64,000 nt of DNA from Gigantopelta aegis (taxonomy: Eukaryota; Mollusca; Gastropoda; Neomphalida; Peltospiridae), in assembly GCF_016097555.1 (NCBI RefSeq), contig NC_054704.1, forward strand, positions 101,111,820 through 101,175,819, read 5' to 3'. Under the pieces are notes generated by a model. It saw only the letters and a list, made by a program, of their open reading frames with translations, had not been told where the DNA came from and ran no database searches. This document shows, one piece after another, positions 960 to 63,971 of this stretch (position 1 is the first letter of the stretch; each line of letters opens with the position of its first letter). Position numbers and translations under genes: made by a program.

Positions 960-1985
960 TCATTGGGGGGGGGGGGGGGCGTAAGTTTGAAGTGGGCGGA
1001 ATTTGGAATAAAATTTTTAGTAAAGGTCTAAAAGCCTAAGTCGACAGAGAATAATCTGCCCAATCATGTCCGGACTAAGAAATTGAATCCAAAAATATAT
1101 TTGACTGCTTGGCCTAAAAGGTTTTAAGGTGATTTGAGCAATTGAACGGGCGCCAAAATGAAGTGCGTTGGACTATTTATAAAAAAAAATAAACATAAGA
1201 ATTTTGAGCCACAGCCAAAAAATTTAAAGTCCAACTAAGCCCCAAAAAGGAGGTTACCTGTCCTAGGTAAGGTTGGCGTCTACGGGGAGGCGATGATGTA
1301 TTCCTCGTTGAAGTGAGACACCAACTTCCTGTAGCTGTGGGTCCGCAAGCAGGTCACTAGCTGGAGGTACTAGGCGCCGGCGATGATCTTGATAATCCTG
1401 TGGACTGTGTAATTGTCCATCTCCTTGTAGAGGATTCCCTGTCTGTACAGTCCATCCCGGTGACCACTAGGACCTGCCCCACTCCCCGTAGATCCTTCGT
1501 GTGAATGGCGATCTGGTTGCCATCTGAGAACGTCTTGAAGTTGACCTCGTCAATCCGGCCTGGCAGTCTGTCGGGATCGGAGACGTCACCCACCAAGTAC
1601 TTAGAGTACTGGCCCTTGATCTTCCCTGCCGTGAGCTGCCAGTCATCCCTGGCAACTCCAACATCCAAAGTCGCCGTCGCGGAGTCCCTCGTGGGGGGGG
1701 GGGGGGGGGTCTCGACGCAGACGAACGATGGGCAGGAACAGTCGATGCTGGCCGCAGTGCAATGGTTGGCTGCTCCACCTGCCGCGTCTGTTCGGGTTGG
1801 CTTGATTGGATGGCGAGTCGCCTCCGGTCACTCCATCCAGTTTGGTCGTGGGGGGGGGGGGGGGGGGGACGCAGACAGGACCGCCACAGGCGGTTGAGCC
1901 GCCAGCTTTATCCCCACCTGAGCTGCCCCTGGCGCACGCTTCCTCTTCCTCGTTCCTCTCTTTTAAGAGGGCAGACCTCTTACAA
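960..1985. other. 1-kb block with poly-G runs interrupting the 43-bp array
   Basis: Unique-looking sequence separates decayed array copies on the left (to about 960) from two on the right (from about 1985). It carries three uninterrupted G runs of about 15-19 bases, at about 965-979, 1693-1709 and 1850-1868. The block is more GC-rich than the AT-rich surroundings. It looks like an insertion into the array, but I see no clear terminal repeats. The G runs could be length artefacts of assembly. Confidence 0.55.
1290..1700 (-). pseudogene. Degraded coding-like fragment, family not recognised
   Basis: On the minus strand part of this stretch translates into protein-like sequence, with a segment reading DWQLTAGKIKGQYSKYLVGD and later GVGQVLVVTGMD. 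It has balanced composition and higher GC than its neighbours, unlike the low-complexity shadows around it. No start, splice sites or continuing gene structure are apparent, so it is probably an old remnant, perhaps from a mobile element. I do not recognise the family, and low-complexity G runs border it. Confidence 0.25.
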
Positions 1986-2182
1986 CAGTAGGAAAGGTCA
2001 TTCTTAAGAGTGGCAGTCTTCATACAAGTAGAAAGGATGTTATTCTTAAGAGATTCATGGGAGAAGTTATGGTTTTTCAAAATATCCTTTTTACTCTGCC
2101 TTGTGCAGCGATATGATTTGGAATGTTATAAATGTTTTGTTATTTACATTATATACTGGATAGAATTATTATTTGTGTTTAG

Positions 2183-5100
2183 ATTGCCGGCCGTATTCTT
2201 GACCGGCGTTATGAAGTGTATGGCAAAGACATCTCTACGAGTGTTAAGCTGGAGAGTGACAGTTATAACCCAGTGTATGAACACAAGGAAGAATACCGAC
2301 TCCAGAACATCCCACCATCAGCTACTCTACTACTCAAAGTAAGTACATCCCACCATCAGCTACTCTGCTACTCAAAGTAAGTACATCTACGAGTGTTAAG
2401 CTGGAGAGTGACAGCTATAACCCAGTGTATGAACACAAGGAAGAATACTGACTCCAGAACATCCCACCATCAGCTACTCTACTACTCAGAGTAAGTACAT
2501 CCCACCATCAGCTACTCTGCTACTCAAAGTAAGTACATCTACGAGTGTTAAGCTGAAGAGTGACAGCTATAACCCAGTGTATGAACACAAGGAAGAATAC
2601 CGACTCCAGAACATCCCACCATCAGCTACTCTACTACTCAAAGTAAGTACATCCCACCATCAGCTACTCTACTACTCAAAGTAAGTACACCCCACCATCA
2701 GCTACACTGCTACTCAAATTAAGTACATCCCACCATCAGCTACTCTACTACTCAAAGTAAGTACACCCAACCATCAGCTACACTACTACTCAAAGTAAGT
2801 ACACCCAACCATCAGCTACTCAAAGTAAGTACATCCCACCATCAGCTACACTACTACTCAAAGTAAGTACACCTCACCATCAGCTACTCTACTACTCAAA
2901 ATAAGTACACCCCACCATCAGCTACTCTACTACTCAAAGTAAGTACATCCCACCATCAGCTACTCTGCTACTCAAAGTAAGTACATCTACGAGTGTTAAG
3001 CTGGAGAGTGACAGCTATAACCCAGTGTATGAACACAAGGAAGAATACCGACTCCAGAACATCCCACCATCAGCTACACTACTACTCAAAGTAAGTACAT
3101 CCCACCATTAGCTACTCTACTACTCAAAGTAAGTACACCCCACCACCAGCTACTCTACTACTCAAAGTACACCCCACCATCAGCTACACTACTACTCAAA
3201 GTAAGTACACCCCCACCATCAGCTACTCTACTACTCAAAGTAAGTACACCCCCACCATCAGCTACTCTACTACTCAAAGTAAGTACACCCCACCATCAGC
3301 TACACCACTACTCAAAGTAAGTACACCCCACCATCAGCTACACCACTACTCAAAGTAAGTACACCCCACCATCAGCTACACCACTACTCAAAGTAAGTAC
3401 ACCCCACCATCAGCTACTCTACTACTCAAAGTAAGTACACCCCACCATCAGCTACACCACTACTCAAAGTAAGTACACCCCACCATCAGCTACACCACTA
3501 CTCAAAGTAAGTACACCCCACCATCAGCTACACCACTACTCAAAGTAAGTACACCCCACCATCAGCTACACCACTACTCAAAGTAAGTATGCCCCACCAT
3601 CAGCTACACCACTACTCAAAGTAAGTACATCCCACCAAGTACACCCCACCATCACCTACACTACTACTCAAAGTAAGTACACCCCACCATCAGCTACACC
3701 ACTACTCAAAGTAAGTATGCCACGTCATCAGCTACACCACTACTCAAAGTAAGTACACCACACCATCAGCTACACTACTACTCAAAGTAAGTACTTCACA
3801 CCATCAGCTACACTACTACTCAAAGTAAGTACACCCCACCATCAGCTACACTACTCAAAGTTAGTACTTCACACTATCTGCTATACTACTACTCAAAGTA
3901 AGTACTTCACACCGTCAGCTACACTACTACTCAAAGTAAGTACTTCACACCATCAGCTAAACTACTACTACTCAAAGTACTTTACACTAATACTCAAAAT
4001 AAGTACACACATCATCAGTCATGTTACTACTTTTAAAGTACATGTATGTACATTCCACTATTCCTCTATCATCAGCTGGTAAGTACAGGGTTCAAATCCT
4101 AACACTGGCTCTGACCCAGAGTACATTTTAATGGCTCACTGGATATGAGGTGTATGCCCATGAAAGTGTGCTTGAACCTTAATTGGGTATAAACACAATA
4201 ATCAAGTTAAAATGCAATAAATCTGTCATATTTCATTGGTAAAATCTGCATGATGTAATATTTAATATACCGGTAAATGAATTATAAACAGCTATTTTTC
4301 CCACAGTTACCTGCACAATGTTATTGTTTTATCAATTTCAGATCTACACAATTGATCGTTTCTATAAGCAGATGACTGTCGTTGGTTATGCAACCATGAA
4401 CCTCTTCATAGAGGTTGGGACGGAGCGCCAACCAACAATAGACAAACAGGGGATGCAGGTATTTAAGATTTATTCATCATATTTCTATAATAATTTGGCA
4501 TTGTTCACCAATTCACAGTTTGTGGATGATTTTTTTTTTCATACCCAGATGAATATAATAGAAATAACAGACAATACTTATAATTAAATTTGAATCATAA
4601 ATAATATAAGACAACTTGCCCATATAAAATGACGTCATCAGATACGACGTTCCCTGACAACATAATTTTTATGTTCATCCAAACATGAACAAACTCCCCT
4701 TGCTACACTGGACCAATGAGATGACACTATGTTGTAATGAATGTAACAGAAATGTAATTATTTAATTACATGAAGTCTTATATTACCAGTGAAAACAGCT
4801 ATTTTTGACAACTGATTCCCAACCAGTGTCCCATGGTCATGGAGTGTGCTGTCCTGTCTGGAATGGTGTATATAAAAGATCCCTTGCTATTAATGAAAAA
4901 ATGTAGCAGGTTTCCTCTCCAAGACTATATGTAAGAATTAACAAATGTTTGACATCCAATAACCGATGATTAATAAAACGATGTGCTCTAGTGGTGTTGT
5001 TAAACATAAACAAACTAACTTTAACTGTCTCGCTTTTCGAATCATGGTTATGGTATGTGCTGTCTGGTCTGTGGGAATAAATATTTAACAGTACCCCAGC

Positions 5101-15009: not shown

Positions 15010-15150
15010 TCGCTACTTCTTCAATTGTTTTTATATCAGACTTTCTGCTTTAAACTCTTCTTCATCAGTTGTTTTTACATCAGACTTTCTGCTGCCAATC
15101 TCTTCTTTGTCAGTTGTTTTCACATCAGACTTTCTGCTTGATCTTCTTTA
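15010..15150 (-). repeat. Triplicated DMAP1 stop-codon region
   Basis: On the minus strand the end of the last DMAP1 exon (gcagaaagtctgatg, containing the TGA at 15125-15127) is followed by two further head-to-tail copies of a 43-45 bp unit, with the same motif near 15081 and 15038. Copies carry aaaacaactgay and aagaag segments. The coding end is therefore the first unit of a short tandem array extending into the 3' UTR. Confidence 0.75.
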
Positions 15151-18100
15151 ATATGGTACTTGATTCCACAGCAGTTTTTCGTTTTCTCTGAAGAAATAAT
15201 TCAAATGCACAATACAGTTATTATAAAAACCTTTCACACATACAAAAAAGAAGAAGAGAGAGTTGAATATGCTGACAAGTGAATAAGGAATCGGGAATCA
15301 GAACAACAAATTTTATGTGGCATTAAGATGTCAGTTTTGTTTTCATCTCCAGTAAGTATTCCCAGGTAAAGTATTATTTTTATTTTCAAAAAACTTTGAT
15401 GACATGAACTTCACAAATAAAATGGATTAATGGAAATATATTTGAACCTCACAAGCCAAGCAACTAACATGATTATAAAGAGATTTAAAATTCTATCCAT
15501 ACTTGCAGCTGAAATAGTTTAAGTCTGCTTTAGTGGCATAAAATGTAACGGGTAAAATATGAGGTTATGGTACAAACAAAAAATAATTTCCAAATGAATT
15601 TCATATATATTTTAAAGTGCACATATGCAAATTTGATTATTTTGAACTACATAGTTTATAATGTTTTGTGCTTGATCGGTATATGGCTTCTGTTTTTCAT
15701 GTATTTTCTGTATGTTACTTGACAAGGACCAGGCATGTGTACAAGAATTTATGCAGAGGGCTCTGAAATGTGGCAAGCGAAGTTTCTATGGAGTAAGTCA
15801 TGCTCTTGTGGAAAATATAGTAAAAGACATTTTTCTTGAGCAGGGGGGTTTCGACCCCTGAAACACTACCCTGTACACAGGTCTGAGAAGCCACAATTTA
15901 ACTTGAAATTTCTATATTTGCTTACATTTGGAGTTGTTGGTGTGGTGGGAGTCCCCACTACGTCTATTGTTTCTGAAAGCTTTCTCTGACCAGTGGGCGT
16001 GTCGGGTGTGGTGTTTATCCCAGACTCCGGCGTAGGACTCATTCGAATACTCGTCTCGAGGTTTGGAGTGGTCGGGGTAGATGGAACGGAGGGTTCAAGG
16101 TCGAGAGGAATTTTTATGTCTAATGGTGTAGATGGCGTCTCAGGTTCAATCTGAAAACAAAACAAGAAAATAACAACTGATCTCTTTTTTCTTAAGTTAA
16201 TGGAGTACCTGACTGTTGTGCCTGTTTAATGGATATATCAGTTTCATTCTGACAACAAATTTAAATACATTTATTAATTCAGAAATGATAAACAACTTAT
16301 GAGTGGCGGTGTGTAGATATTTCAGTGTGTCAGACGAAACAATACTCATCTAAACAAAGAGCTCTACTAAATGTATTATCGCTCCCTGAATATGTAACTA
16401 GAGTTACCCACCTTGATTTGACCTCCAGTGTTAATTTGATGTCTCAAAGTCTGCTGTTCATATTCACATGTTGCTGAAGCCAACTTTAGCTCATATAGTA
16501 ACACAATATCTTGACGCAGTTCGTTAAAGTTCTGAACTATTTCTTCTGTTGGCATGGGATTATATTCTTCAAAAGAAAAAAGGTATCATTTTCTTAAGAA
16601 TAAGCAGAATTAGGTTCAGTAAAAAGAACATTAAAATCCACAAACATCAATCTACTCAACTAATATAATTGCAATCAAAAGCAAATTCAGAATTTGAATG
16701 TACATCTCAAAACCAATCTTTATTCTATCTTAAAAATTAAAAACATTATTAAAATGAAACCACCACCATTCCTACACGCACCTGCATGTATAAATTATGA
16801 AATTCTGAATATTAAATTCATGAGTCATTACCAAAACGTCAATTTTTGCTGGAGTGAATTCGAAAGGATAACAAAAATGTATGTTAAACGTTTTTCTTAG
16901 ACATTTTGTCCATATAAAAATTGTTTACAACAGAAAATAGTTTATTTAACAGTAATTAACTTCAGTATTTTGAATTCGTCATGGACCACATTTATTACAT
17001 AAAGATTGAGTAAATGGTACCTATTCCGAGTTCCTCCAGCACTTGTTCAATTGCCTTCAATTTCTTTTGTCCCACTGATGCTGGCAGCTTCATCTACAGA
17101 AAAATAACAGGATATAATAAGGAAAGTTTTAAAATAATCCAACTGACAATGTATTAATGTGTGTCCAAGTAATTTAAAATAATCCAACTGACAATGTGTG
17201 TCCGAGTAATTTAAAATAATCCAACTGACAATGTATTTATGTGTGTCCGAGTAATTTAAAATAATCCAAACTGACAATGTATTAATGTGTGTCAGAGTAA
17301 TTTAAAATAATCCAACTGACAATGTATTTATGTGTGTCCGAGTAATTTAAAATAATCCAACTGACAATGTATTTATGTGTGTCCGAGTAATTTAAAATAA
17401 TCCAACTGACAATGTATTAATGTGTGTCCGAGTAATTTAAAATAATCCAACTGACAATGTATTTATGTGTGTCCGAGTAATTTAAAATAATCCAACTGAC
17501 AATGTATTTATGTGTGTCCGAGTAATTTAAAATAATCCAACTGACAATGTATTTATGTGTGTCCGAGTAATTTAAAATAATCCAACTGACAATGTATTTA
17601 TGTGTGTCCGAGTAATTTAAAATAATCCAACTGACAATGTATTTATGTGTGTCCGAGTAATTTAAATTAATCCAACTGACAATGTATTAATGTGTGTCCG
17701 AGTAATTTAAAATAATCCAACTGACAATGTATTAATGTGTGTCCGAGTAATTTAAAATAATCCAACTGACAATGTATTTATGTGTGTCCGAGTAATTTAA
17801 AATAATCCAACTGACAATGTATTTATGTGTGTCCGAGTAATTTAAAATAATCCAACTGACAATGTATTTATGTGTGTCCAAGTAATTTAAATTAATCCAA
17901 CTGACAATGTATTAATGTGTGTCCAAGTAATTTAAAATAATCCAACTGACAATGTATTTATGTGTGTCCGAGTAATTTAAAATAATCCAACTGACAATGT
18001 ATTAATGTGTGTCCGAGTAATTTAAATTAATCCAAATGACAATGTATTTATGTGTGTCCGAGTAATTTAAAATAATCCAACTGACAATGTATTTATGTGT

Positions 18101-21100
18101 GTCCGAGTAATTTAAAATAAGCCAACTGACAATGTATTTATGTGTGTCCGAGTAATTTAAAATAATCTAACTGGCAATGTATTTATGTGTGTCCGAGTAA
18201 TTTAAAATAATCCAACTGACAATGTATTTATGTGTGTCCGAGTAATTTAAAATAATCTAACTGACAATGTATTTATGTGTGTCCGAGTAATTTAAATTAA
18301 TACAAGAATGTCACAGAATTAAATATATTGCGAAACCACAGTTTTGGAACAGATATAACATACACCATACATCATTTCTCATTAGATTTGGATGATTCCT
18401 AAGATTTACCTTGTGTAACACAAAATCACAAAATTCCACAGATCCCCTGAGGAATATTTTCATTCCTGCATGTTTAATTAATCACGAGTTCGCTTGAACT
18501 GATCAGTCAATAATTAAAAGTTCATTAACTTTCGACACATAAAACATTTTTACCTCTTGACCCCAAAAATATCCAAGGTGTTAATATTTAAAGCTATTAA
18601 ATAATAAATAATATTGAAATAATTATGTTACTGTTACCAATCATATAAAGAACCATGTTATGACCCCATTGTGCAGTGTGGATCACAATGTATTAATTTC
18701 CACAAATCATCAAAGGTAATACAATTATCAGTCTCACTGAAAATGAAATGGCTACTATACCCTCTGACTGCGCAGTGTAACACCAGACTGTTTCAAATCT
18801 GCAAACTTTATCCCAGCAGCATCAGGTGTAGACGGCTGTAAAAACAAACATCAACAGAATTACAATACATTTAAACAAGAATTCCACAGATTTAGAATAT
18901 CTCGCCTACCATAAACATTTTGGTATACTGTGATGAACAACCATAAACTATTCTTGACTGATATAGGACTCATAATTTGTGACAAACTGATCTAAACTCA
19001 ACATTTTAATGCAAACATTGAGGCTGCTGCCATCACTGTCGGCATCATGGAAAAAGTAATACCGATATCTCGCATTTTCACTCCGTAATGGCAAGACTAT
19101 CAGTTTATATTGTCATTCAGACAAATGAAGTCAAGATTTTATATTTATAAATTCTATAGAAACAAAACAAATAAAATGTTTTCTGTTTAATTTGTTGCAG
19201 GGACAGTTATGCCATATTTGTTTCAAAATCAAACACATAATTACTAATTTAAACTAATTAAAATTAATGTCTTTTGGGAAAATAATAATCCAAAATATTG
19301 ACTCTATGCAAGTGTGATGGATGCATCCAAAGAAATGAATATTAGACCATTTTGACTTGAATAAATGTGACCCGCTCTGTCGAAACCAGGCACTTGGTGA
19401 TATTTATCAAAAGAGAGTTTTATATATCATTGGAAAGCTTATTGAATAAGCTTTCCAAAACTGGCTATTTAAAGATACTCAAAAGTTGGAATAAGAGCAA
19501 ATTTAGTTACTACAGTTACTTTTGGACCATTTAGGTTTATTTTGCTTATGCACGAACACAGCACCTGTAATAAATAGCAATTTTCATCAAAAAAAAGATT
19601 GTTTACTCAGTCAGGAGATAAAAATCCTGAAATTCACTTTTTGAGTAGTTTGTCGTGATTTTTTTTCCAATCCTGGGTTGGGGTAAGGGCTAAGTGCAAC
19701 CAGATTACTTCGTCCTTGTTTACCTATTTCTGATGCCTGCTTAATTAAAATGGCTGAGAAAAACACCCCCTTCCCGCTATTTTTTGGTGCGAGGTACACA
19801 TTATCATAGGGCAGGGAGTGCGCCCCTGCACCCAAGGCCTTGCTAGTGCATGCAGTCCAAAATGCTTAGCCATGCTAGCCCATGGTGGGTATTTTATTAC
19901 TTTCATTTAATTTTGGCTTTGCCTTTGCCGTGGCTTTATTATTGGCTAGGTTTGTAGTTTATAACCTATGCTCCTTTCATAGTCTCTGACAAGTCAACAC
20001 ATGTGATACAGGCCAATGTCAGTGATTTGTTTACAAACGTTTGTATAGAAAAGCATTCACCCAGCAATACAGAATTAACTTATGTTGGCCATAAAGGTAT
20101 ATAATAAAAAAATGATTGCTTATCAGTGAAGTAATCTTGGATGAGGTCAAGAATTCCTTTAAGCCCAAATAACTGATCAGAATTTAGCATCCATGCTATA
20201 TGACCACTATCTTTATCTTGCAAAGACATTTCTTGTCTAAATTATAACAATCGTTCAACTAATAGTGTTCAAACATAGCAAAAAATCTTTGTGCGTGAAA
20301 AACTACCTGAATGAGTTGTTGTTCATCATAGCGGAAGTGGATGACGCTGCTGCAGTGCGCATGCAGGATGTAATGTGATGTAATATAGACCAATCAGAGA
20401 CCTCGAAACAGGTCTGGGTAGCAACTAGATCAGATTGTTACATTCCATAAGCTTTAAAAGATCCCTTTGCATTGGCTGCATGTAATTTATTCTGATGTAA
20501 AACACTCATTATTAGAAAATATAGATCATGTGGGATCCTGTGGTATGTAGCTTTTACTACTCGCTGTTGAAAAAACCCACAACTAGCATGGAACTTGGAC
20601 GAGTTTTGTCTAAAACAAAGGATGATTAGCACAATTCTTTTCAGACACCTCATCAAAACATGCATTAAACAACACTTATCTATTGGTTTTATGCCCTAAA
20701 ATTTTTAGCTGTTAGAAAATTACATTTAGGCATTTAGATAATAAACCAATTTCCGTTGGGATGACCCATTTTTCACTTATTAAGCCATTGCTTGAATGTT
20801 AGCTCAGCGACAAGCGCCTGATTTCGACGGCGTTTCAATGGTGTTGTTCAAAAGATAAATCTTGAAACACCGTGTAAAACAAATAGTATCAGTCAGCAGT
20901 TCTTACAGTTTGACATGAGGAATTGCTTTTGCTTGTGTGCTGTCAATCACACGCCGATATCACTCATTCATTTTACTAACAATTTCTGTGAATTTGACAA
21001 TTACTCTCATACATAATTTCTGGACAGCAGTTTACAAACCATAAGCAATTTAACAGACATAAGTGTGGTATTCTTAATATTAATGATCAACATACTCCAC

Positions 21101-24100
21101 TGACTCTGATTTTCAAACCATAAGCACTCAAACAGACATAAGTGTGATATTCTTAATATTAATGATCCACATACTCCGCTGTCTCTGATTTTCAAACCAT
21201 AAGCACTCAAACAGACATAAGTGTGATATTCTTAATATTAATGATCCACATACTCCGCTGTCTCTGATTTTCAAACCATAAGCATTGAAACAGACGTAAG
21301 TGTGATATTCTTAATATTAATGATCCACATACTCCGCTGTCTCTGATTTTCTGCTGTGGTGTGATCCTCTTCTTCATGTTTCTCCTCTCAGCACGCCGGT
21401 TGTCGAAGTTGCTGTCGGCGGCAATGATCAGTTTCTGTAGATCCTGCGTCTTCTTCTCTCGCTCTCGTTTACGCAGCTCGATCTTCTTCAACTCCGTTAT
21501 CAGATTCTCTTCCTCTTCAACCTTGGAAACACACAGGCATAAACATGTTAGAATACCGTATATTGCCGTGTATTAGCCGACTTTTGAAGTCTAGAAATAC
21601 TTTCCAAAAGAAGAGAGTCGGCTTATACATGGAGGCAACAAATTGGTTCATAAAATTCCGATCGAAAACACTCCCGACCCCGACTTACAAATTTTGATCA
21701 GACCCTTAGAGCCTTTCACAGTTTATGTAACAATAATTTGTGCACAATATAAATAATACACCCCGTCATGCAATATTATGTAGTTTTTTGTTCTTGAATG
21801 CATTAATAGTTTGATGAATAATAATAAAAATTACTTGTTTTATTGTCATTTCAATGGTATAAACGTGTTCCGCCATCTTTGTTTGACACCTCTGTCTATA
21901 TCATTTTGTAAGCTCTTATTTGATTGGATTACACAATTTTGTGTAAACAACAGCCATGGACCACAGAATTGTTTCTGTGTGGAGGGGAAAACAGGGATTA
22001 AACACGCCTTAATGAGTTTATTATTTGCTGTCCAGTGAATAATTTAATTACTTATGTGCAATGATATGTTGTTACAGCTTGAATTGTTTATTTTCCTGTT
22101 ATGATTTATTGGTGCTAAATTATTTTTGCACGGCATGGAAGACGTTAGCATTGCGATGACGATTACCGTGTCTGTAATAATTAAAGGGGAAAAAATACAG
22201 TGAAAAAGAAAAGCACAAGTCTATTTGTTGACAGTATTATTGAAACCAATACAATATACAACTGGACAAAAGATGACTTCGGCTTATACACGAGGCCGAT
22301 GATTTTGTACTTGATATTTAGGGTCAAACTAAGAGGTCGGCTTATACAAGGAGTCGGCTAATACACGGCAATATATGGTAAACACAGCAGAATAAACAAG
22401 CATTCTCAAGAGTCTGCAGAAGCAATACATGTCCCCTATCAGGCACAACAAATCTCCATATCTCCTATGCTCAAAGGCCATAACTGTGTGACAAATGGAT
22501 AAATTGACAGTTAAATTTTATATGTAACAGTACAAACTATATAAAAAATTTCAGCTCATTATCTACAGGCACTGCATAAAAAAAAGTCTGGAAAACTAAT
22601 TTTCATATCTCCTAAGTTCAAGGGCCATAACTCTGTGACAAATGGATAAATTGCCATGAAAGTTAAACTTGCTATGTAACAGAACATTATAGTGTATACA
22701 CATTTGAGATTGACATGACAAAAGTATTAAACCATCATTACTTGTTCATGAGTTCTGTCAAACAGCTTCATGAGTTGTGACTTTCTTCTCCGCTCATGTT
22801 CTGCATCAAACACTCGGATCTTGGGTTCAATCCCCTGTGGTGCTCTTACCTTTTTAATAAATAAAAAGAAAATATGGAAAATATAACCTAGGAATAAACA
22901 ATCTTTAAAAAACCACAAAAAAACAATGGAGAACACAGTTAGTAATTGCATATTTTCAGTCTGATTAGCTGTGTTAATACAATAAAATCTATACTGAGAG
23001 CTCTTATTTATTACATTACTATCTTGTGACATTCAGTTGTTTTGTTTGTGCAATGGTATTAAATCTTTATACATACCATTGTTTGACAGGAATGGAACAT
23101 ATGTTTAACAGCACCTGAAAACATTTTTAAAATGATGGCTGGTTATACCTGGTTATTTTGACATAACATCTAAAGAATGAGAGAAAAAATGTGCTTATTA
23201 AACCTCACCTTGGCTAATATATTGCACACGTTATAGTATCTCTCCTTGAGGTCCTCAATGCTTCGGTCTCTGTATTTTTCTTTGTTCCATCGGTCGTGTA
23301 TTATGATAAAGCGCAGGTCAAATCGTTTACACAGGTCGAACAGATGATCGGTTTCTTGACGGGGCCAGTTATCATCGTGGAGATGTTGCTGGTATTCCAG
23401 GTCAGAGTATGTGGGCACGTCAACACTCTAAAATAGTTTTACAACTTTTATACGCTGCTTGTTACACGTATCACTTGTTACAGTATATCATAAAATTATA
23501 AAATTATTTAATTAGGAGATAACCACATGGAGTTTTTAGATTTGCGGGTGTTACTGTCTATTTGAAGTAAAAAAATTAAACATTTGTGGGCATCAAATAG
23601 ACAATAACACCCGCAAATCTAAAAACTCCATATGGTTATGTCCATTGTAAACTGAATTGTTTTTCTACGGAATTAACTGTATATTTGGTATTTCTTGAAA
23701 AAAATACCTGGCTACAGTCTAACTGTCGACCCTTGAATCGTCAACTTCGCCTGTTCCAATTGCTAATGATGTCATTTTCTAATGACGTCATTAGCTTTCC
23801 GGGTGTTATTGTCTATTTGATCCCGGAAAAAGAATGTAATTAACCAATCACAATAAAGAACACATTCGCAGTCATTTTACAATGTAAGTTAAAAATAAGT
23901 GTTCCAGTGGACAGATAAGATTTCTTTTATCACAATTACAATGCTAAAGTAATGATTTAATTGTTCATTCCCGATTACGACATGTTAGTCACAACTCAAA
24001 TCTTAAAACGTAATTCTAAGAGACTGGACATAAAATATATAAAATTTATTATCATGGATTCATGTCCTAAGTAGACCGAAATAGAATAGTGGATCAACAA

Positions 24101-28239: not shown

Positions 28240-49236
<20,997 letters not shown>

Positions 49237-49704: not shown

Positions 49705-51100
49705 GGTCTTCAGCAGTCACCCATATTAGTCCAGCCTCTACCCTTTGACCAATCCAGCTTGGGTGACCCACAGTCATCCATATTAGTCCAGCCTTTACCC
49801 TTTGACCAATCCAGCTTGGGTGACCCACAGTGATCCATATTAGTCCAGCCTCTACCCTTTGACCAATCCAGCTTGGGTGACCCACAGTGATCCATATTAG
49901 TCCAGCCTTTACCCTTTGACCAATCCAGCTTGGGTGACCCACAGTCACCCATATTAGTCCAGCCTTTACCCTTTGACCAATCCAGCTTGGGTGACCCACA
50001 GTCACCCATATTAGTCCAGCCTTTACCCTTTGACCAATCCAGCTTGGGTGACCCACAGTGATCCATATTAGTCCAGCCTTTACCCTTTGACCAATCCAGC
50101 TTGGGTGACCCACAGTCACCCATATTAGTCCAGCCTTTACCCTTTGACCAATCCAGCTTGGGTGACCCACAGTGATCCATATTAGTCCAGCCTTTACCCT
50201 TTGACCAATCCAGCTTGGGTGACCCACAGTGATCCATATTAGTCCAGCCTTTACCCTTTGACCAATCCAGCTTGGGTGACCCACAGTCACCCATATTAGT
50301 CCAGCCTTTACCCTTTGACCAATCCAGCTTGGGTGACCCACAGTGATCCATATTAGTCCAGCCTCTACCCTTTGACCAATCCAGCTTGGGTGACCCACAG
50401 TGATCCATATTAGTCCAGCCTCTACCCTTTGACCAATCCAGCTTGGGTGACCCACAGTGATCCATATTAGTCCAGCCTTTACCCTTTGACCAATCCAGCT
50501 TGGGTGACCCACAGTGATCCATATTAGTCCAGCCTCTACCCTTTGACCAATCCAGCTTGGGTGACCCACAGTGATCCATATTAGTCCAGCCTTTACCCTT
50601 TGACCAATCCAGCTTGGGTGACCCACAGTGATCCATATTAGTCCAGCCTCTACCCTTTGACCAATCCAGCTTGGGTGACCCACAGTCACCCATATTAGTC
50701 CAGCCTTTACCCTTTGACCAATCCAGCTTGGGTGACCCACAGTGATCCATATTAGTCCAGCCTTTACCCTTTGACCAATCCAGCTTGGGTGACCCACAGT
50801 CACCCATATTAGTCCAGCCTTTACCCTTTGACCAATCCAGCTTGGGTGACCCACAGTGATCCATATTAGTCCAGCCTTTACCCTTTGACCAATCCAGCTT
50901 GGGTGACCCACAGTGATCCATATTAGTCCAGCCTTTACCCTTTGACCAATCCAGCTTGGGTGACCCACAGTGATCCATATTAGTCCAGCCTCTACCCTTT
51001 GACCAATCCAGCTTGGGTGACCCACAGTGATCCATATTAGTCCAGCCTCTACCCTTTGACCAATCCAACTTGGGTGACCCACAATGATCCATATTAGTCT
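49705..51100. repeat. 57-bp tandem array (second), downstream of the MCCC2-like gene
   Basis: About 24 copies of a 57-bp unit (gatccatattagtccagcc, tttaccctttgaccaatcc, then agcttgggtgacccacagt), with cagtcaccc/cagtgatcc and cttta/cctct variants. It is unrelated in sequence to the 57-bp array at 39541. Two minus-strand frames stay open for 460 codons each, as expected for a unit divisible by three. It lies about 470 bases after the MCCC2-like stop, possibly in the 3' UTR. No AATAAA is obvious between the stop and the array. Confidence 0.93.
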
Positions 51101-54017: not shown

Positions 54018-54140
54018 AAGTTTGTTTTGTTTAACGACACCACTAGAGCACACTAATTAATGAGCGGCTACTTGATGTCAAACAAAGGCACAGTCTTCAG
54101 ATGAGACTGGCTACATTAGCAGCAAGGGATGTTTTGTATC
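54018..54140 (-). mobile_element. SINE end that grades into the 70-bp satellite
   Basis: Plus-strand motifs gtttgttttgtttaacgac, accactagagcacactaat and cttgatgtcaaacaaagg are the inverted SINE 3' end. The body then continues as ggctacattagcagcaaggg and atgttttgtatctacttctc, which is also the first unit of the following tandem array. Confidence 0.75.
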
Positions 54141-57100
54141 TACTTCTCACACACACACAGCACATACTGTGGGACACTGGCTACTGCAGAAAGGGATGTT
54201 TTGTATCTACTTCTCACACACAGACAGCACATACTGTGGGGCACTGGCTACATTAGCAGCAAGGGATGTTTTGTATCTACTTCTCACACACACACAGCAC
54301 ATACTGTGGGGCACTGGCTACATTAACAGAAAGGGATGTTTTGTATCTACTTCTCACACACAGACAGCACATACTGTGGGGCACTGGCTACATTAGCAGA
54401 AAGGGATGTTTTGTATCTACTTCTCACACACAGACAGCACATACTGTGGGGCACTGGCTACATTAGCAGCAAGGGATGTTTTGTATCTACTTCTCACACA
54501 CAGACAGCACATACTGTGGGGCACTGGCTACATTAGCAGCAAGGGATGTTTTGTATCTACTTCTCACACACAGACAGCACATACTGTGGGGCACTGGCTA
54601 CATTAGTAGCAAGGGATGTTTTGTATCTACTTCTCACACACAGACAGCACATAATGTGGGGCACTGGCTACTTCAGAAGCAAGGGATGTTTTGTATCTAC
54701 TTCTCACACACAGACAGCACATACTGTGGGGCACTGGCTACATTAGCAGAAAGGGATGTTTTGTATCTACTTCTCACACACAGACAGCACATACTGTGGG
54801 GCACTGGCTACATTAGCAGCAAGGGATGTTTTGTATCTACTTCTCACACACAGACAGCACATACTGTGGGGCACTGGCTACATTAGCAGAAAGGGATGTT
54901 TTGTATCTACTTCTCACACACAGACAGCACATACTGTGGGGCACTGGCTACATTAGCAGCAAGGGATGTTTTGTATCTACTTCTCACACACAGACAGCAC
55001 ATACTGTGGGGCACTGGCTACATTAGCAGCAAGGGATGTTTTGTATCTACTTCTCACACACAGACAGCACATACTGTGGGGCACTGGCTACATTAGCAGA
55101 AAGGGATGTTTTGTATCTACTTCTCACACACAGTATCACTGGCTACTTCAGAAGCAAGGGATGTTTTGTATCTACTTCTCACACACAGACAGCACATACT
55201 GTGGGGCACTGGCTACATTAGCAGAAAGGGATGTTTTGTATCTACTTCTCACACACAGACAGCACATAATGTGGGGCACTGGCTACTTCAGAAGCAAGGG
55301 ATGTTTTGTATCTACTTCTCACACACAGACAGCACATACTGTGGGGCACTGGCTACATTAGCAGAAAGGGATGTTTTGTATCTACTTCTCACACACAGAC
55401 AGCACATACTGTGGGGCACTGGCTACATTAGCAGCAAGGGATGTTTTGTATCTACTTCTCACACACAGACAGCACATACTGTGGGGCACTGGCTACATTA
55501 GCAGAAAGGGATGTTTTGTATCTACTTCTCACACACAGACAGCACATACTGTGGGGCACTGGCTACATTAGCAGAAAGGGATGTTTTATATCTACTTCTC
55601 ACACACAGACAGCACATACTGTGGGGCACTGGCTACTGCAGCAAGGGATGTTTTGTATCTACTTCTCACACACAGACAGCACATACTGTGGGGCACTGGC
55701 TACATTAGCAGAAAGGGATGTTTTGTATCTACTTCTCACACACAGACAGCACATACTGTGGGGCACTGGCTACATTCAGGGGGTGTGTTTTTTATCTACT
55801 TCTCACACACAGCAGCAAGGGATGTTTTGTATCTACTTCTCACACACAGACAGCACATACTGTGGGGCACTGGCTACATTAGCAGCAAGGGATGTTTTGT
55901 ATCTACTTCTCACACACAGACAGCACATAATGTGGGGCACTGGCTACTTCAGAAGCAAGGGATGTTTTGTATCTACTTCTCACACACAGACAGCACATAC
56001 TGTGGGGCACTGGCTACATTAGCAGAAAGGGATGTTTTGTATCTACTTCTCACACACAGACAGCACATACTGTGGGGCACTGGCTACATTAGCAGCAAGG
56101 GATGTTTTGTATCTACTTCTCACACACAGACAGCACATACTGTGGGGCACTGGCTACATTAGCAGAAAGGGATGTTTTGTATCTACTTCTCACACACAGA
56201 CAGCACATAATGTGGGGCACTGGCTACTTCAGAAGCAAGGGATGTTTTGTATCTACTTCTCACACACAGACAGCACATACTGTGGGGCACTGGCTACATT
56301 AGCAGAAAGGGATGTTTTGTATCTACTTCTCACACACAGACAGCACATAATGTGGGGCACTGGCTACTTCAGAAGCAAGGGATGTTTTGTATCTACTTCT
56401 CACACACAGACAGCACATACTGTGGGGCACTGGCTACATTAGCAGAAAGGGATGTTTTGTATCTACTTCTCACACACAGACAGCACATACTGTGGGGCAC
56501 TGGCTACATTACCAGCAAGGGATGTTTTGTATCTACTTCTCACACACAGACAGCACATACTGTGGGGCACTGGCTACATTACCAGCAAGGGATGTTTTGT
56601 ATCTACTTCTCACACACAGACAGCACATACTGTGGGGCACTGGCTACTTTAGCAGCAAGGAATGTTTTGTATCTACTTCTCACACACAGACAGCACATAC
56701 TGTGGGGCACTGGCTACATTAGCAGAAAGGGATGTTTTGTATGCACTTCTCACACACAGACAGCACATACTGTGGGGCACTGGCTACATTAGCAGAAAGG
56801 GATGTTTTGTATCTACTTCTCACACACAGACAGCACATACTGTGGGGCACTGGCTACTTCAGAAGCAAGGGATGTTTTGTATCTACTTCTCACACACAGA
56901 CAGCACATACTGTGGGGCACTGGCTACTTCAGAAGCAAGGGATGTTTTTTTATCTACTTCTCACACACAGACAGCACATACTGTGGGGCACTGGCTACTT
57001 CAGAAGCAAGGGATGTTTTGTATGCACTTCTCACACACAGCACATATTGTGGGACACTGGCTACTGCAGAAAGGGATGTTTTGTATCTACTTCTCACACA

Positions 57101-57548
57101 CAGACAGCACATACTGTGGGGCACTGGCTACATTAGCAGCAAGGGATGTTTTGTATCTACTTCTCACACACAGACAGCACATACTGTGGGGCACTGGCTA
57201 CATTAGCAGCAAGGGATGTTTTGTATCTACTTCTCACACACAGACAGCACATACTGTGGGGCACTGGCTACATTAGCAGAAAGGGATGTTTTTTATCTAC
57301 TTCTCACACACAGACAGCACATACTGTGGGGCACTGGCTACTTCAGAAGCAAGGGATGTTTTGTATCTACTTCTCACACACAGACAGGACATACTGTGGG
57401 GCACTGGCTACTTCAGAAGCAAGGGATGTTTTGTATCTACTTCTCACACACAGACAGCACATACTGTGGGGCACTGGCTACTTCAGAAGCAAGGGATGTT
57501 TTGTATCTACTTCTCACACACAGACAGGACATACTGTGGGGCACTGGG
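54110..57548. repeat. 70-bp satellite, apparently SINE-derived
   Basis: About 49 copies of a 70-bp unit (ctacattagcagcaaggg, atgttttgtatctacttctc, acacacagacagcacatac, tgtggggcactgg). Variants include cttcagaag for cattagcag and ataatg for atactg, and a few units are truncated (about 55131, 55775-55813, 57040). The unit aligns with the inverted SINE body: ctacatt...tagcaaggg, atcttttatatgcac, ccacagacaggatagcacatacc and the gtgcactgg region. Overlapping open frames of 66-280 codons are shadows. Confidence 0.93.
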
Positions 57549-58989: not shown

Positions 58990-59934
58990 ATACTGAACAA
59001 AAAAAGAAACTTCCGATTTGTACATATAGTATTTGTTGTGTTAAAGAATTCATTGTGTAACGAAATTATATAGGTAGTATTAGCCTTGAGCTGTATTATC
59101 AGGATTCATGAATTTTATCGATTATTTTTGCACTGTTAATTGTCCACAACGTGAAATTCAATTTGCACGTGCATGCATGGTTCGACATGTCCCGTGTAGT
59201 ATTCGGTCAATTTGTTTTACTTGTCTTACTGACATTGTTGTCAAGTGAACGAAAACGCTTAAAAATTTGTAAAAAAAACAACGTTTTTTACATTGTAGCA
59301 TTTTTAGTATGCCAAGAATACCCAATAATTTACGCGAACGGGCGATTGGCATGCTTGATGCTGGCATGTCGACAAAAGACGTTGCAAGGCATGTTGGGAG
59401 TTCTAGTCGAGCGATACGAAATCTTCGCGTAAGATTTCGAACGACAGGAAGCACCAACGACTTGCCACGCCGTGGACGTCCGTGTGTTACAACGCGTGGT
59501 CAAGACCGCTATATCATGAACACGCATTTGCGCAATCGATTCCAAACTGCCACTGCTACTGCCGCTAACACACCTGGGCTTCATAATAACCGAATCAGTG
59601 GGAAAACTGTTCGTAATCGTCTGCGGGAGAACGGTTCATATGCACGACGTCCTTACGTCGGATGCGTTTTAACGCAACGTCATCGTCTAAATCGTCTTAA
59701 TTGGGCACGTGTACACACTCGTTGGATACGGCGACGCTGGAATACCGTTCTTTTTTCGGATGAATCCAGATTTTCTTTACAACGTTGTGATGGCAGGGTG
59801 CGCGTCTACCGTAGGAAAAATGAACGCTATGCTGTCTGTTGTGTTCTTGAACGAGATCGTTTCGGAGGTGGGGGTTGTGTCATGGTCTGGGCAGCCATTG
59901 CCCATTGTCACGGGGATTCTATAATACCCGTAAC
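58990..59934 (+). mobile_element. Tc1/mariner-like transposon, 5' part, interrupted by an LTR element
   Basis: Begins after a TA at about 58989 with tactgaacaaaaaaagaaac, a typical Tc1-like inverted-repeat start. A non-coding leader is followed by the transposase frame. The element stops abruptly at 59934, where a long terminal repeat starts. The right half, including the second inverted repeat, is expected beyond the retrotransposon and outside this window. Confidence 0.8.
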
Positions 59935-59941
59935 TGAATAA
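59309..59941 (+). CDS. Tc1-like transposase, N-terminal two-thirds
   Basis: Starts MPRIPNNLRERAIGMLDAGM and has the paired-like helix-turn-helix DNA-binding region (about residues 5-60; MSTKDVARHVGSSSRAIRN, then RRGRP at 52-56). The second helix block follows (GKTVRNRLRENG), and then the start of the DDE domain (WNTVLFSDESRFSL), which supplies the first catalytic aspartate. A full Tc1 transposase is about 340 residues; this frame has 210. The second Asp and the Glu of the DDE/D triad are absent because the LTR element cuts in after the GDSIIPV region. The last codons and stop come from the LTR. The enzyme would be inactive. Confidence 0.85.
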   Translation: MPRIPNNLRERAIGMLDAGMSTKDVARHVGSSSRAIRNLRVRFRTTGSTNDLPRRGRPCVTTRGQDRYIMNTHLRNRFQTATATAANTPGLHNNRISGKTVRNRLRENGSYARRPYVGCVLTQRHRLNRLNWARVHTRWIRRRWNTVLFSDESRFSLQRCDGRVRVYRRKNERYAVCCVLERDRFGGGGCVMVWAAIAHCHGDSIIPVTE

Positions 59942-61161: not shown

Positions 61162-63902
61162 CACCCCCACCTCAAAAAGGATATTTCCTCTACTCTAGGA
61201 ATAGGGAAATATACTACATTAAAACAAAAATGTGCGTTAACCGACGCATACGGACATTTATAACACATGTAATAATAAGGTGACTACCAGTAATCACACT
61301 GAGTCTCTGAGTCCCTGGTATACAAATAAAATATATATAAACAAAACAGAAATAAAGAATGTCAACACATTATCATAACGTTCAACTTCGGGACAGGGCA
61401 TCAGCGATTACATTGGATGTGCCCTTGATATGTCCATTGGTAATTGGGTATTCTTGCAGGATAAGACTCCATCTCAAAACTCTCTGGTTGGAAGCTTTCA
61501 TTAGGATGATCCAGTCCGTCTTCGTCTTCTTGGAACAGCACAGCTCCAGCACCCACGTCACTGGCACCCACAGCTAGCTTGAACGGCATTCGGTAGTCTG
61601 GTGCTGCCATCACGGGAGACGAGTAGCGCCTCTGCTTGAGACGGTTGAATGACTTCTCGCATTCACCTGACCAATGGAACTTCGTTTCCTTCTTTCTCAG
61701 CGTCGCACGTTTTCCAGGTTTTCTCCGATAGGCATGCTGTCGACGCGGTGTAGCGTTGGGTTCCAAGCGCACATCTTTGCTTAAGGTGTTGGTAACCGTT
61801 GGAAGGTTCTGACAAATGGAAACATTGTCTTGTTTCGACGTAGTCAACTTTGCTCGCTGGGGGTTCAAGTCTGCTAGAATCTGGCCGTTGGCCAACTTGA
61901 CCTCTGCAGTCTTGACGTCATCACAGGAAATTGAGTGTCTCTCAATTTGGACCGGTCTCTCTGGAACTATCGGCAGTCTGTCAAAATAACCTTTTAGCAA
62001 ATTGATGTGACAATACCTACTTTTCCTAACCCTATCAGGAGTGTTTATCATATACCCTGTCTCATTAACTCGTTTGAGCACAACATAGGGCCCGAAATAC
62101 CTGTTCTGCACAGAACCCCGTTTAATGGGAAGGTACAGCAGCACCTTATCCCCTGGTTTAAATTCCCGACTCTTAGCCTTCCTATCAAACACTGATTTTA
62201 TTTTGCTCTGAGCATGGCTCAGTTGCTTCCTAGCTAGTTCGGTCGCCGGCAACCTCCCATCTCTAACTCTCTTATTTTATTAATACTCCCTTGTCCACAG
62301 TTAACAAGGTAGTGCGAGCTGCCAACAAATTTGGATCAGCCCCCTGCTCTAGAATTAACTCTTGTCTATTACAAGGTAAATCCCCTCTATCAAAGACAAC
62401 TGGTTCAATTCCCCTCTGCGGGAGATCAACAGGTTCCACCACATTTAATTCCTCAGTTGACTTGTCTACAATTTTACTGATAACCTCATCCACTCCAATT
62501 TCATGGCTCACACACGTATCAGACAAATCACAAATATCCTCTGCGTCTTGTGCTAACCTACTGGTCATATCCCTAGTCATTACACACGCAGGATATTTAA
62601 TCTCATCAACCTCACACTCTTTTATGGGTAAAGGGCTGTCTGTCATTAACAATTGGTCACATTGCGGCTGACAACACTGACTAGTCAAATCATTACCCAA
62701 CAAAACTCCTATGTTTTCAACAGGCAAGTCCTTCACAACACCCATAACGACTGGTCCCGTCACAAACTTCGAACACAAGAAAACCTTATGTAACCGGACA
62801 ACCATTTTTTCTCCAGTAACCGAGGTTAAAGCCAAACTACGTCCTATGTTTGAATTTTCAATACCAGCTAAACACTTTTGCGTTATCAGACTCTGACTAC
62901 ACCCGGTATCTCTATAGATTGATATAGCCTTTGGACACAACTCTTGTTTCACATCACAAACCATACCAGTGGACACATACGGGTTTACTTTCTCTGCCAT
63001 GGGACTAACCATTAACTCTCTCGCTAACGGAGCTGACCTCACTAAACCGACCACTTGCGCATTATCGCGTTTCCTTTTAAAACAGTCCCCGATAAGATGG
63101 TTATCCTTTTTACAGTAACTGCAATGTGGACGAAAAGTTCGTGCATTGGCTGATAATGCAGGTCTATCCTTACTTTGCCCACCAGGTGCATTCCTTGCCT
63201 GACTAGCTGACCAACTAGATGACTCTCCCCGATAGTTACTTTCCCGGGAAAAACCTGGCTGAAATTTCTTCTTATCACCCTGTTGTAAAGAGCTACCCAG
63301 TACTGCCTGAGCTTTGTGTATTAACACGTAATCATCTGCCACTATGCCTGCCTCCTCTATCTTTTTGACTTCACGATCCTCTAAGTGAATACGTAAGCTA
63401 ACTGGTAATCCATTTTTAATGTCCTGTAAGATCAACAACTCCCGTAACTCGGTATATGACTCTACCTGATGAGACACCACCCATTTATCAAACATCCCTG
63501 CCTTCTTAGCCACAAACTCACTATAAGACTGACCCTGCGTTTTTCTCAACTCGCTATACCGTAAACGATAATCCTCAGGTCGTAATTCATAAGCCCTCAA
63601 CACTGCAGCCTTAACTAGGTCGTACTGACTTGCTCGCTCATCACTCATTGAATTATAAGCTATACTAGCCTTCCCCTCAACACGGCTAACAATGTCCACT
63701 TAGACTTCGGCCAATTTAGCTGCTTAGCGGCCCGTTCAAAAAGTTGAAAGAATATGTCTACCTCCTGATCGTCAAATACAGGCACTGATCTATAAGCCTC
63801 CGACATGTTAAAACCATTTCCTGCCTCACGTCTAACTTCTTCAGTATTCAACTTTAACTCATGTTCCACTTTTAATTTTTCTAACTGGAATTCTCTATCC
63901 CT

Positions 63903-63904
<2 letters not shown>

Positions 63905-63971
<67 letters not shown>

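Follow-up and report, generated by a model that had tools for sequence, protein, structure and literature searches.

A predicted exon at positions 2183-2338 of the window, by which we mean the whole stretch of 64,000 nucleotides that was analysed, is followed by an intron in which the end of that exon, complete with its splice donor, is repeated dozens of times. This locus raises the questions of how such an array came to lie at an exon boundary and of how one donor would be chosen among so many nearly identical copies. The interpretation that we favour, with a probability of about 0.82, is that the array is a minisatellite of the type described in amphioxus as "mirages", which has grown from the end of the exon and is tolerated.

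Anatomy of the array and of its host exon

The features of the locus are given below, with a slash marking splice boundaries here and in the text.

2183..2338, + strand: predicted coding exon that seeds the array by its 3' end (IAGRILDRRYEV...IPPSATLLLK, phase 0 end; from its open frame and splice signals)
2307..4005, + strand: minisatellite of 38-bp units, with degenerate remnants to about 4045
2339..2344, + strand: first donor GTAAGT, alone among the 33 tested in keeping the frame open into 4342-4458
2386..2488, + strand: extra exon-body copy 1, 98% identical, part of a 152-bp higher-order unit (TRF period 152)
2538..2642, + strand: extra exon-body copy 2, 98% identity
2986..3090, + strand: extra exon-body copy 3, 98% identity
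4342..4458, + strand: predicted next exon (IYTIDRFYKQMTVVGYATMNLF..., acceptor tttcag/ATCTAC, phase 0)

An earlier note on this DNA had described, at 2183-4005, roughly 40 tandem copies of a unit made of the exon's last 30 or so bases and its donor. Our analyses agree with this description in its essentials and refine its limits. A scan of positions 2100-4150, allowing at most 4 mismatches in 17, has identified 39 recognisable copies of CTACTCAAAGTAAGTAC, and 32 of these carry the exact 12-mer CTCAAAGTAAGT, a word that is absent from the rest of the window's + strand and from its entire - strand. The 38-bp unit consists of 32 bp of the exon end and 6 intron bases (GTAAGT); the first unit begins inside the exon, at 2307, and the remnants extend past 4005. 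The range 2183-4005 holds 33 GTAAGT words, compared with 46 on the entire + strand of the window. Among the seven copies without the exact 12-mer, one is altered at position -2 with its GTAAGT preserved, the GT is gone from three others (one TTAAGT, two ATAAGT), and the last three are altered after it (GTTAGT, GTACTT, and GTACAC).

Tandem Repeats Finder (TRF) reports periods of both 38 and 152 at the array, the 152-bp unit being composed of the exon body and two short units. When the exon was used as a query against the whole genome, at least 12 matches were obtained, all at this single locus, viz. the exon itself and 11 matches in the array (three partial copies of 103-105 bp with 98% identity and eight short ones); no copy elsewhere in the genome was present among the matches listed. 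The 24-mer centred on the donor boundary of the exon recurs 34 times, and the array occupies the stretch from 2339 to about 4045 of a 2003-base intron. In a wraparound alignment, unit positions 4 and 20 show the bases of the exon itself (T4, T20) in the copies adjacent to it, the central copies have derived bases in common, and decay is greatest at the 3' end. This gradient shows the history that is expected of an array that has grown. Upstream of the exon, G runs of 15, 17, and 19 bases are present at 965-979, 1693-1709, and 1850-1868 (+), and these may be prone to sequencing error.

The exon 2183-2338 (acceptor tttgtgtttag/ATTGCC, donor CTCAAA/GTAAGT), its donor, and its junction with 4342 are predicted from the open frame, the splice signals, and the matching 0/0 phase, and other predicted exons lie both upstream and downstream on the same strand. 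When 2183-2338 is joined to 4342-4458 the frame reads through. Every one of the 32 later GTAAGT copies leads to a premature stop: in 31 cases the stop is a TAA within the second donor, and for that donor itself the stop lies in the following exon. The expectation that a later donor would usually shift the frame or meet TAA thus holds more strongly than it had been put. As had also been pointed out, the spliceosome is confronted with dozens of almost identical donors. Of the first 12 that were scored, 11 have AAAGTAAGT as their nine-base sequence, so that U1 pairing does not distinguish the first donor from most of the others. RNA structure that hides the later donors was considered and rejected as an explanation, as the mean unpaired probability is 0.37 for the first donor and 0.19-0.55 for the others.

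The assignment of the host gene as a C2-domain gene is weak, for the joined exons match only PI3K_C2, at E=0.11, under the Pfam cut-off; a longer join of exons gave no match in Pfam, and a comparison of the gene with PDB sequences gave none either. With its coiled-coil and C2-like character, the gene presumably resembles CCDC17.

Boundary arrays around the window and in kinase exons

A second case in the window involves an exon of another gene:

21333..21521, - strand: exon ending CAGAGACAGCGGA/GTATGT, DMAP1-like (DMAP1 chain in PDB, E=2.7e-11)
21031..21351, - strand: array of four 79-bp copies, the unit combining the 19 terminal bases of the exon with its donor and some 60 bases of the intron

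Near this DMAP1-like gene, an array of three 45-bp copies at 15034-15138 (-) is open as a 15-residue repeat (KSDVKTTD.EE) and is possibly coding.

The region examined comprised the window (C6:101111820-101175819 of a 1.149 Gb genome) and 100 kb on each side (263,819 bases), and 71 merged tandem arrays with a period of at least 14 and a length of at least 100 make up 48,061 of these bases. Other long minisatellites in the window, with units of 23-81 bp, are located at 1-707, 17128-18305, 30762-36118 (a 46-bp array that exceeds 5 kb), 37869-38789, 39539-40969, 49714-51099, and 54106-57547.

A boundary was scored as recurrent when the 24-mer centred on it recurred within 4 kb with at least 20 of 24 matches. 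The regional set consists of 85 boundaries from six genes, curated by hand from open frames, splice signals, and homology; of 110 boundaries belonging to 55 exon cores, 26 were dropped by hand as ambiguous at a time when the arrays were already known, donor 130596 was added on account of its array, and donor 9098 was also included, from exon prediction. Tandem recurrence was found at 10 of the 85 boundaries (5/41 donors and 5/44 acceptors). Boundary arrays were seen at the donor of a Roc-domain exon (Pfam Roc, E=2.4e-5, narrowly failing the cut-off), at a COR-like donor (a weak domain match, E=0.065), at the acceptor of a TIR-domain exon (TIR_2, E=1.2e-11), at the acceptor of a PDE exon (PDEase_I, E=7.6e-31), and at two acceptors at about -22044 and -6366, whose exons seem, from their order and strand, to belong to the same gene as the 38-bp array. 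The acceptor 24-mer of exon 4342-4458 shows no tandem recurrence.

As arrays inflate the length of introns, with each array position counted once per copy, we have taken the copy-weighted rate of recurrence among intron positions as the fair null. For the regional genes, 26% of intron positions are recurrent in raw terms and 3.7% when copy-weighted. Against the latter the 10 observed cases compare with 3.1 expected (P=0.0012, in a set that is partly post hoc), and with the 38-bp array and the hand-added exon removed the count is 8/83 (P=0.012); under the raw null there is no enrichment. After the regional count had been made the amphioxus precedent was found, and, as the regional set is partly post hoc, a separate sample of kinase exons was then drawn. 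It consists of 40 partial kinase-domain exons without stops, from PF00069 matches elsewhere in the genome, hand-picked roughly in table order before their sequences were inspected. Boundaries could be called for 69 of the 80 exon ends, the other 11 being left out automatically for want of a splice site above the threshold, and there may be erroneous calls among these 69 (e.g. L045). Recurrence was seen at 6 of the 69, compared with 2.96 expected (P=0.075, not significant by itself), the flanking intron positions being 15% recurrent in raw and 4.3% in copy-weighted terms. All six cases look genuine in sequence, viz. the donor of L031 (an array of DFG/GTAAGT donors), both ends of L046, and the acceptors of L052, L055, and L068. 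In L046 (C6:3044714-3046186) the arrays span both the acceptor (VAIKI region) and the donor of one kinase exon.

Pooling the two sets without the 38-bp array and the hand-added exon gives 14 of 152 boundaries, compared with 6.0 expected (P=0.003, again partly post hoc), which puts the frequency of amplification at boundaries at about 2.3 times that of copy-weighted intron positions. Similar arrays are thus present at about one in ten of the sampled exon boundaries in this genome. Boundaries are not spared, and they may even be favoured about twofold relative to copy-weighted intron positions.

Several further structures were left uncounted. Next to the COR-like exon, an 84-bp array with its end at 123496 is not recurrent in the boundary test; the acceptor of L045 has degenerate copies to the eye that this test does not confirm; and an array of eight 48-bp copies at -97398 to -97024 (C6:101014421-101014795) overlaps the predicted acceptor of an uncurated exon and is a possible acceptor array. 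In L024 (C6:101225983-101226108), a 60-bp tandem duplication (TRF 100%, 2.1 copies, 20 codons in frame) is located in the Roc-domain exon, a short distance 5' of the donor array. The window also contains, as judged by eye, an open frame resembling a Tc1/mariner-type transposase at 59273-59941 (+) and retrotransposon-looking gag/pol-like frames with a zinc-knuckle-like motif at 61401-63965 (-).

Conservation of the splice-site copies

Donor copies that serve a purpose are expected to be better preserved than the remainder of the unit, and harmful ones to be purged. In the 38-bp array, the 9 donor positions hold 7 substitutions, compared with 88 at the remaining 29 positions. Of the 88, 64 are shared variants at six positions; with these six positions removed, 24 substitutions remain on 23 positions. 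The number of distinct variants in the donor window is 8, compared with a mean of 8.3. When five arrays are pooled, 32/965 donor cells and 236/4063 cells elsewhere are substituted (P=0.0014, although the cells are not independent), and in a rotation test on six donor arrays, without L031, P=0.017 (P=0.024 for distinct variants). With L031 included, the mismatches in the donor 9-mer of seven arrays are still below average, though not significantly so (P=0.14). Donor conservation was therefore rejected as a sign of function, its significance being gone once the seventh array is included. Acceptor windows, in eight of the nine acceptor arrays (L052 was left out), have somewhat more mismatches, which is likewise not significant (P=0.12). 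The donor copies are thus neither clearly kept nor purged, perhaps with a weak constraint on them, and as far as can be seen the arrays evolve as tolerated passengers.

These results bear on the reading that the array is a functional one, which binds many U1 snRNPs and serves as a poison-exon switch acting through nonsense-mediated decay, or as protection from premature polyadenylation. Since all 32 later donors create premature stops, any use of them would act as a switch; the donor word is intact in 32 of the 39 copies, and a hint of its conservation came from the tests with five and with six arrays. However, the seven arrays together show no significant conservation of the donor, and identical anatomy is found at acceptors and in unrelated genes. 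We regard this reading as improbable, though slightly less so than the others considered below, and the special regulatory role that the earlier note had raised is not borne out by a donor 9-mer at P=0.14 in a genome where both donor and acceptor arrays are common. The locus is similar to alternative tandem 5' splice sites in that several 5' sites compete for one acceptor; several U1 particles are reported to be able to occupy such alternative sites, which affects the choice of site and not the efficiency (PMC5389562). It differs from regulated alternative 5' sites in that none of the 32 later donors keeps the frame and the donors show no significant conservation. None of the 32 thus gives an open product, though a poison-exon role would need none.

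Origin of the array, choice of donor and comparison with amphioxus mirages

Under the interpretation that we favour, a short segment lying by chance across the 3' boundary of the exon would have been duplicated in tandem, and the array would then have lengthened and been partly homogenised through slippage or unequal exchange. Copies would have been added on the intron side, and because they join there, the exon and its own donor would stay intact at the 5' edge, with the array turned into intron sequence. By exon definition, the donor picked is most likely the first, because it is paired with the upstream acceptor across an exon of normal size (156 nt) and is transcribed first. Use of later donors would produce longer, frame-broken exons with stop codons, and stray products of this kind would for that reason be destroyed or selected against. 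The array itself probably has no function. Two observations fit this account less well: the donors are somewhat better kept in several tests (P=0.0014 for five arrays, P=0.017 for six), and boundaries are amplified at a rate roughly double that of copy-weighted intron positions, an excess that would not arise if arrays were born purely at random.

It is quite unlikely that the array represents an intron gain in progress, in which a tandemly duplicated proto-splice site would have created the intron itself (a model of the Rogers type, cited in PMC3087553). The array does fill most of the intron, and a model leading from mirage to intron has been published (PMC3087553). However, neither the 4342 acceptor nor the final 300 or so bases of the intron resemble the unit, and an intron of this origin would have both of its ends duplicated, whereas the 4342 boundary is not among the 10 recurrent ones. 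An assembly artefact, or a repeat collapsed or expanded in assembly, is slightly less likely still. Long tandem arrays are hard to assemble and the copy number may be inexact, but the copies differ by ordered variants and gradients, the locus lies within a 102.9-Mb contig, and other genes show the same anatomy. Least credible of all, and close to negligible, is a U1 sponge acting in trans, a possibility that the earlier note had raised and that the 33 GTAAGT words in one intron might suggest: U1 far exceeds any one nascent intron in abundance, and because three GTAAGT at a spacing of 20-50 bases already give 30,404 overlapping matches genome-wide (compared with 57,483 for a reversed control word, so that no genome-wide excess of donor arrays is seen), 33 sites in one intron add little and make a poor candidate.

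The closest parallel to the tolerated minisatellite that we propose is provided by the amphioxus mirages, which are described as minisatellite-like, length-polymorphic tandem duplications of exon/intron boundaries, either 5' or 3', with AG or GT retained in many copies (PMC3087553). They have been reported in Adh3, BflGb6, BflGb9, TnC, and PGBD5 (PMC3087553, PMC3902484), with unit lengths given as 10-72 bp in Adh3 and 150-160 bp in the globins (PMC3087553). As in the mirages, the unit here spans an exon-intron boundary, many copies bear splice signals, both donors and acceptors of unrelated genes are affected, and the centre of the array is homogenised while its edge has diverged; the unit lengths also overlap. 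The array differs in its 39 copies (about 3-50 in the other arrays tested), compared with 3 and 6 in two BflGb6 haplotypes. How the correct donor is selected had been posed as an open question, and to this the amphioxus work gives a partial answer, in that mirages are reported to be apparently without effect on regular splicing, as indicated by Adh3 data and globin RT-PCR (PMC3087553, PMC3902484).

The amphioxus papers name a handful of genes, and the incidence of the structure is estimated here, at about one boundary in ten among those sampled. This broader pattern is a more interesting result than the single array. It also gives a measure of how frequently tandem duplications extend into splice sites and are tolerated. 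Arrays of this kind, with dozens of nearly identical 5' or 3' splice sites at genuine exon ends, set exon definition against site strength: because U1 complementarity cannot separate most of the copies, whatever selects the first donor must be context or the order of synthesis. A more far-reaching idea, which we consider tentative and rather doubtful, is that minisatellites in this lineage of molluscs arise preferentially at splice boundaries. If so, perhaps one boundary in ten, in very many genes, would carry arrays that the spliceosome must ignore daily, a process tied to splice sites would be seeding repeats (e.g. transcription-linked breakage at hybrids of nascent RNA and DNA), and the genome would constitute a natural experiment on choosing among dozens of identical splice sites.

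The mirages have been described in cephalochordates and the host here is a mollusc, taxon not being a defining feature of this type of repeat. The haemocyanin domain PF14830, a family that we take to mark molluscs, has 5 matches in the host genome (best E=5.8e-33), on small contigs (C2783 and C5121) for which contamination is possible, and matches in none of 14 control genomes. The present cases thus probably lie in another phylum than amphioxus, and our search of open-licence papers found no report of mirages in molluscs. A likewise molluscan intron with a minisatellite is intron 3 of the abalone TSSK1-like gene, in which a polymorphic repeat with a 27-bp unit has been reported (PMC6905558); the available description does not state whether that repeat spans an exon boundary, as the array described here does.
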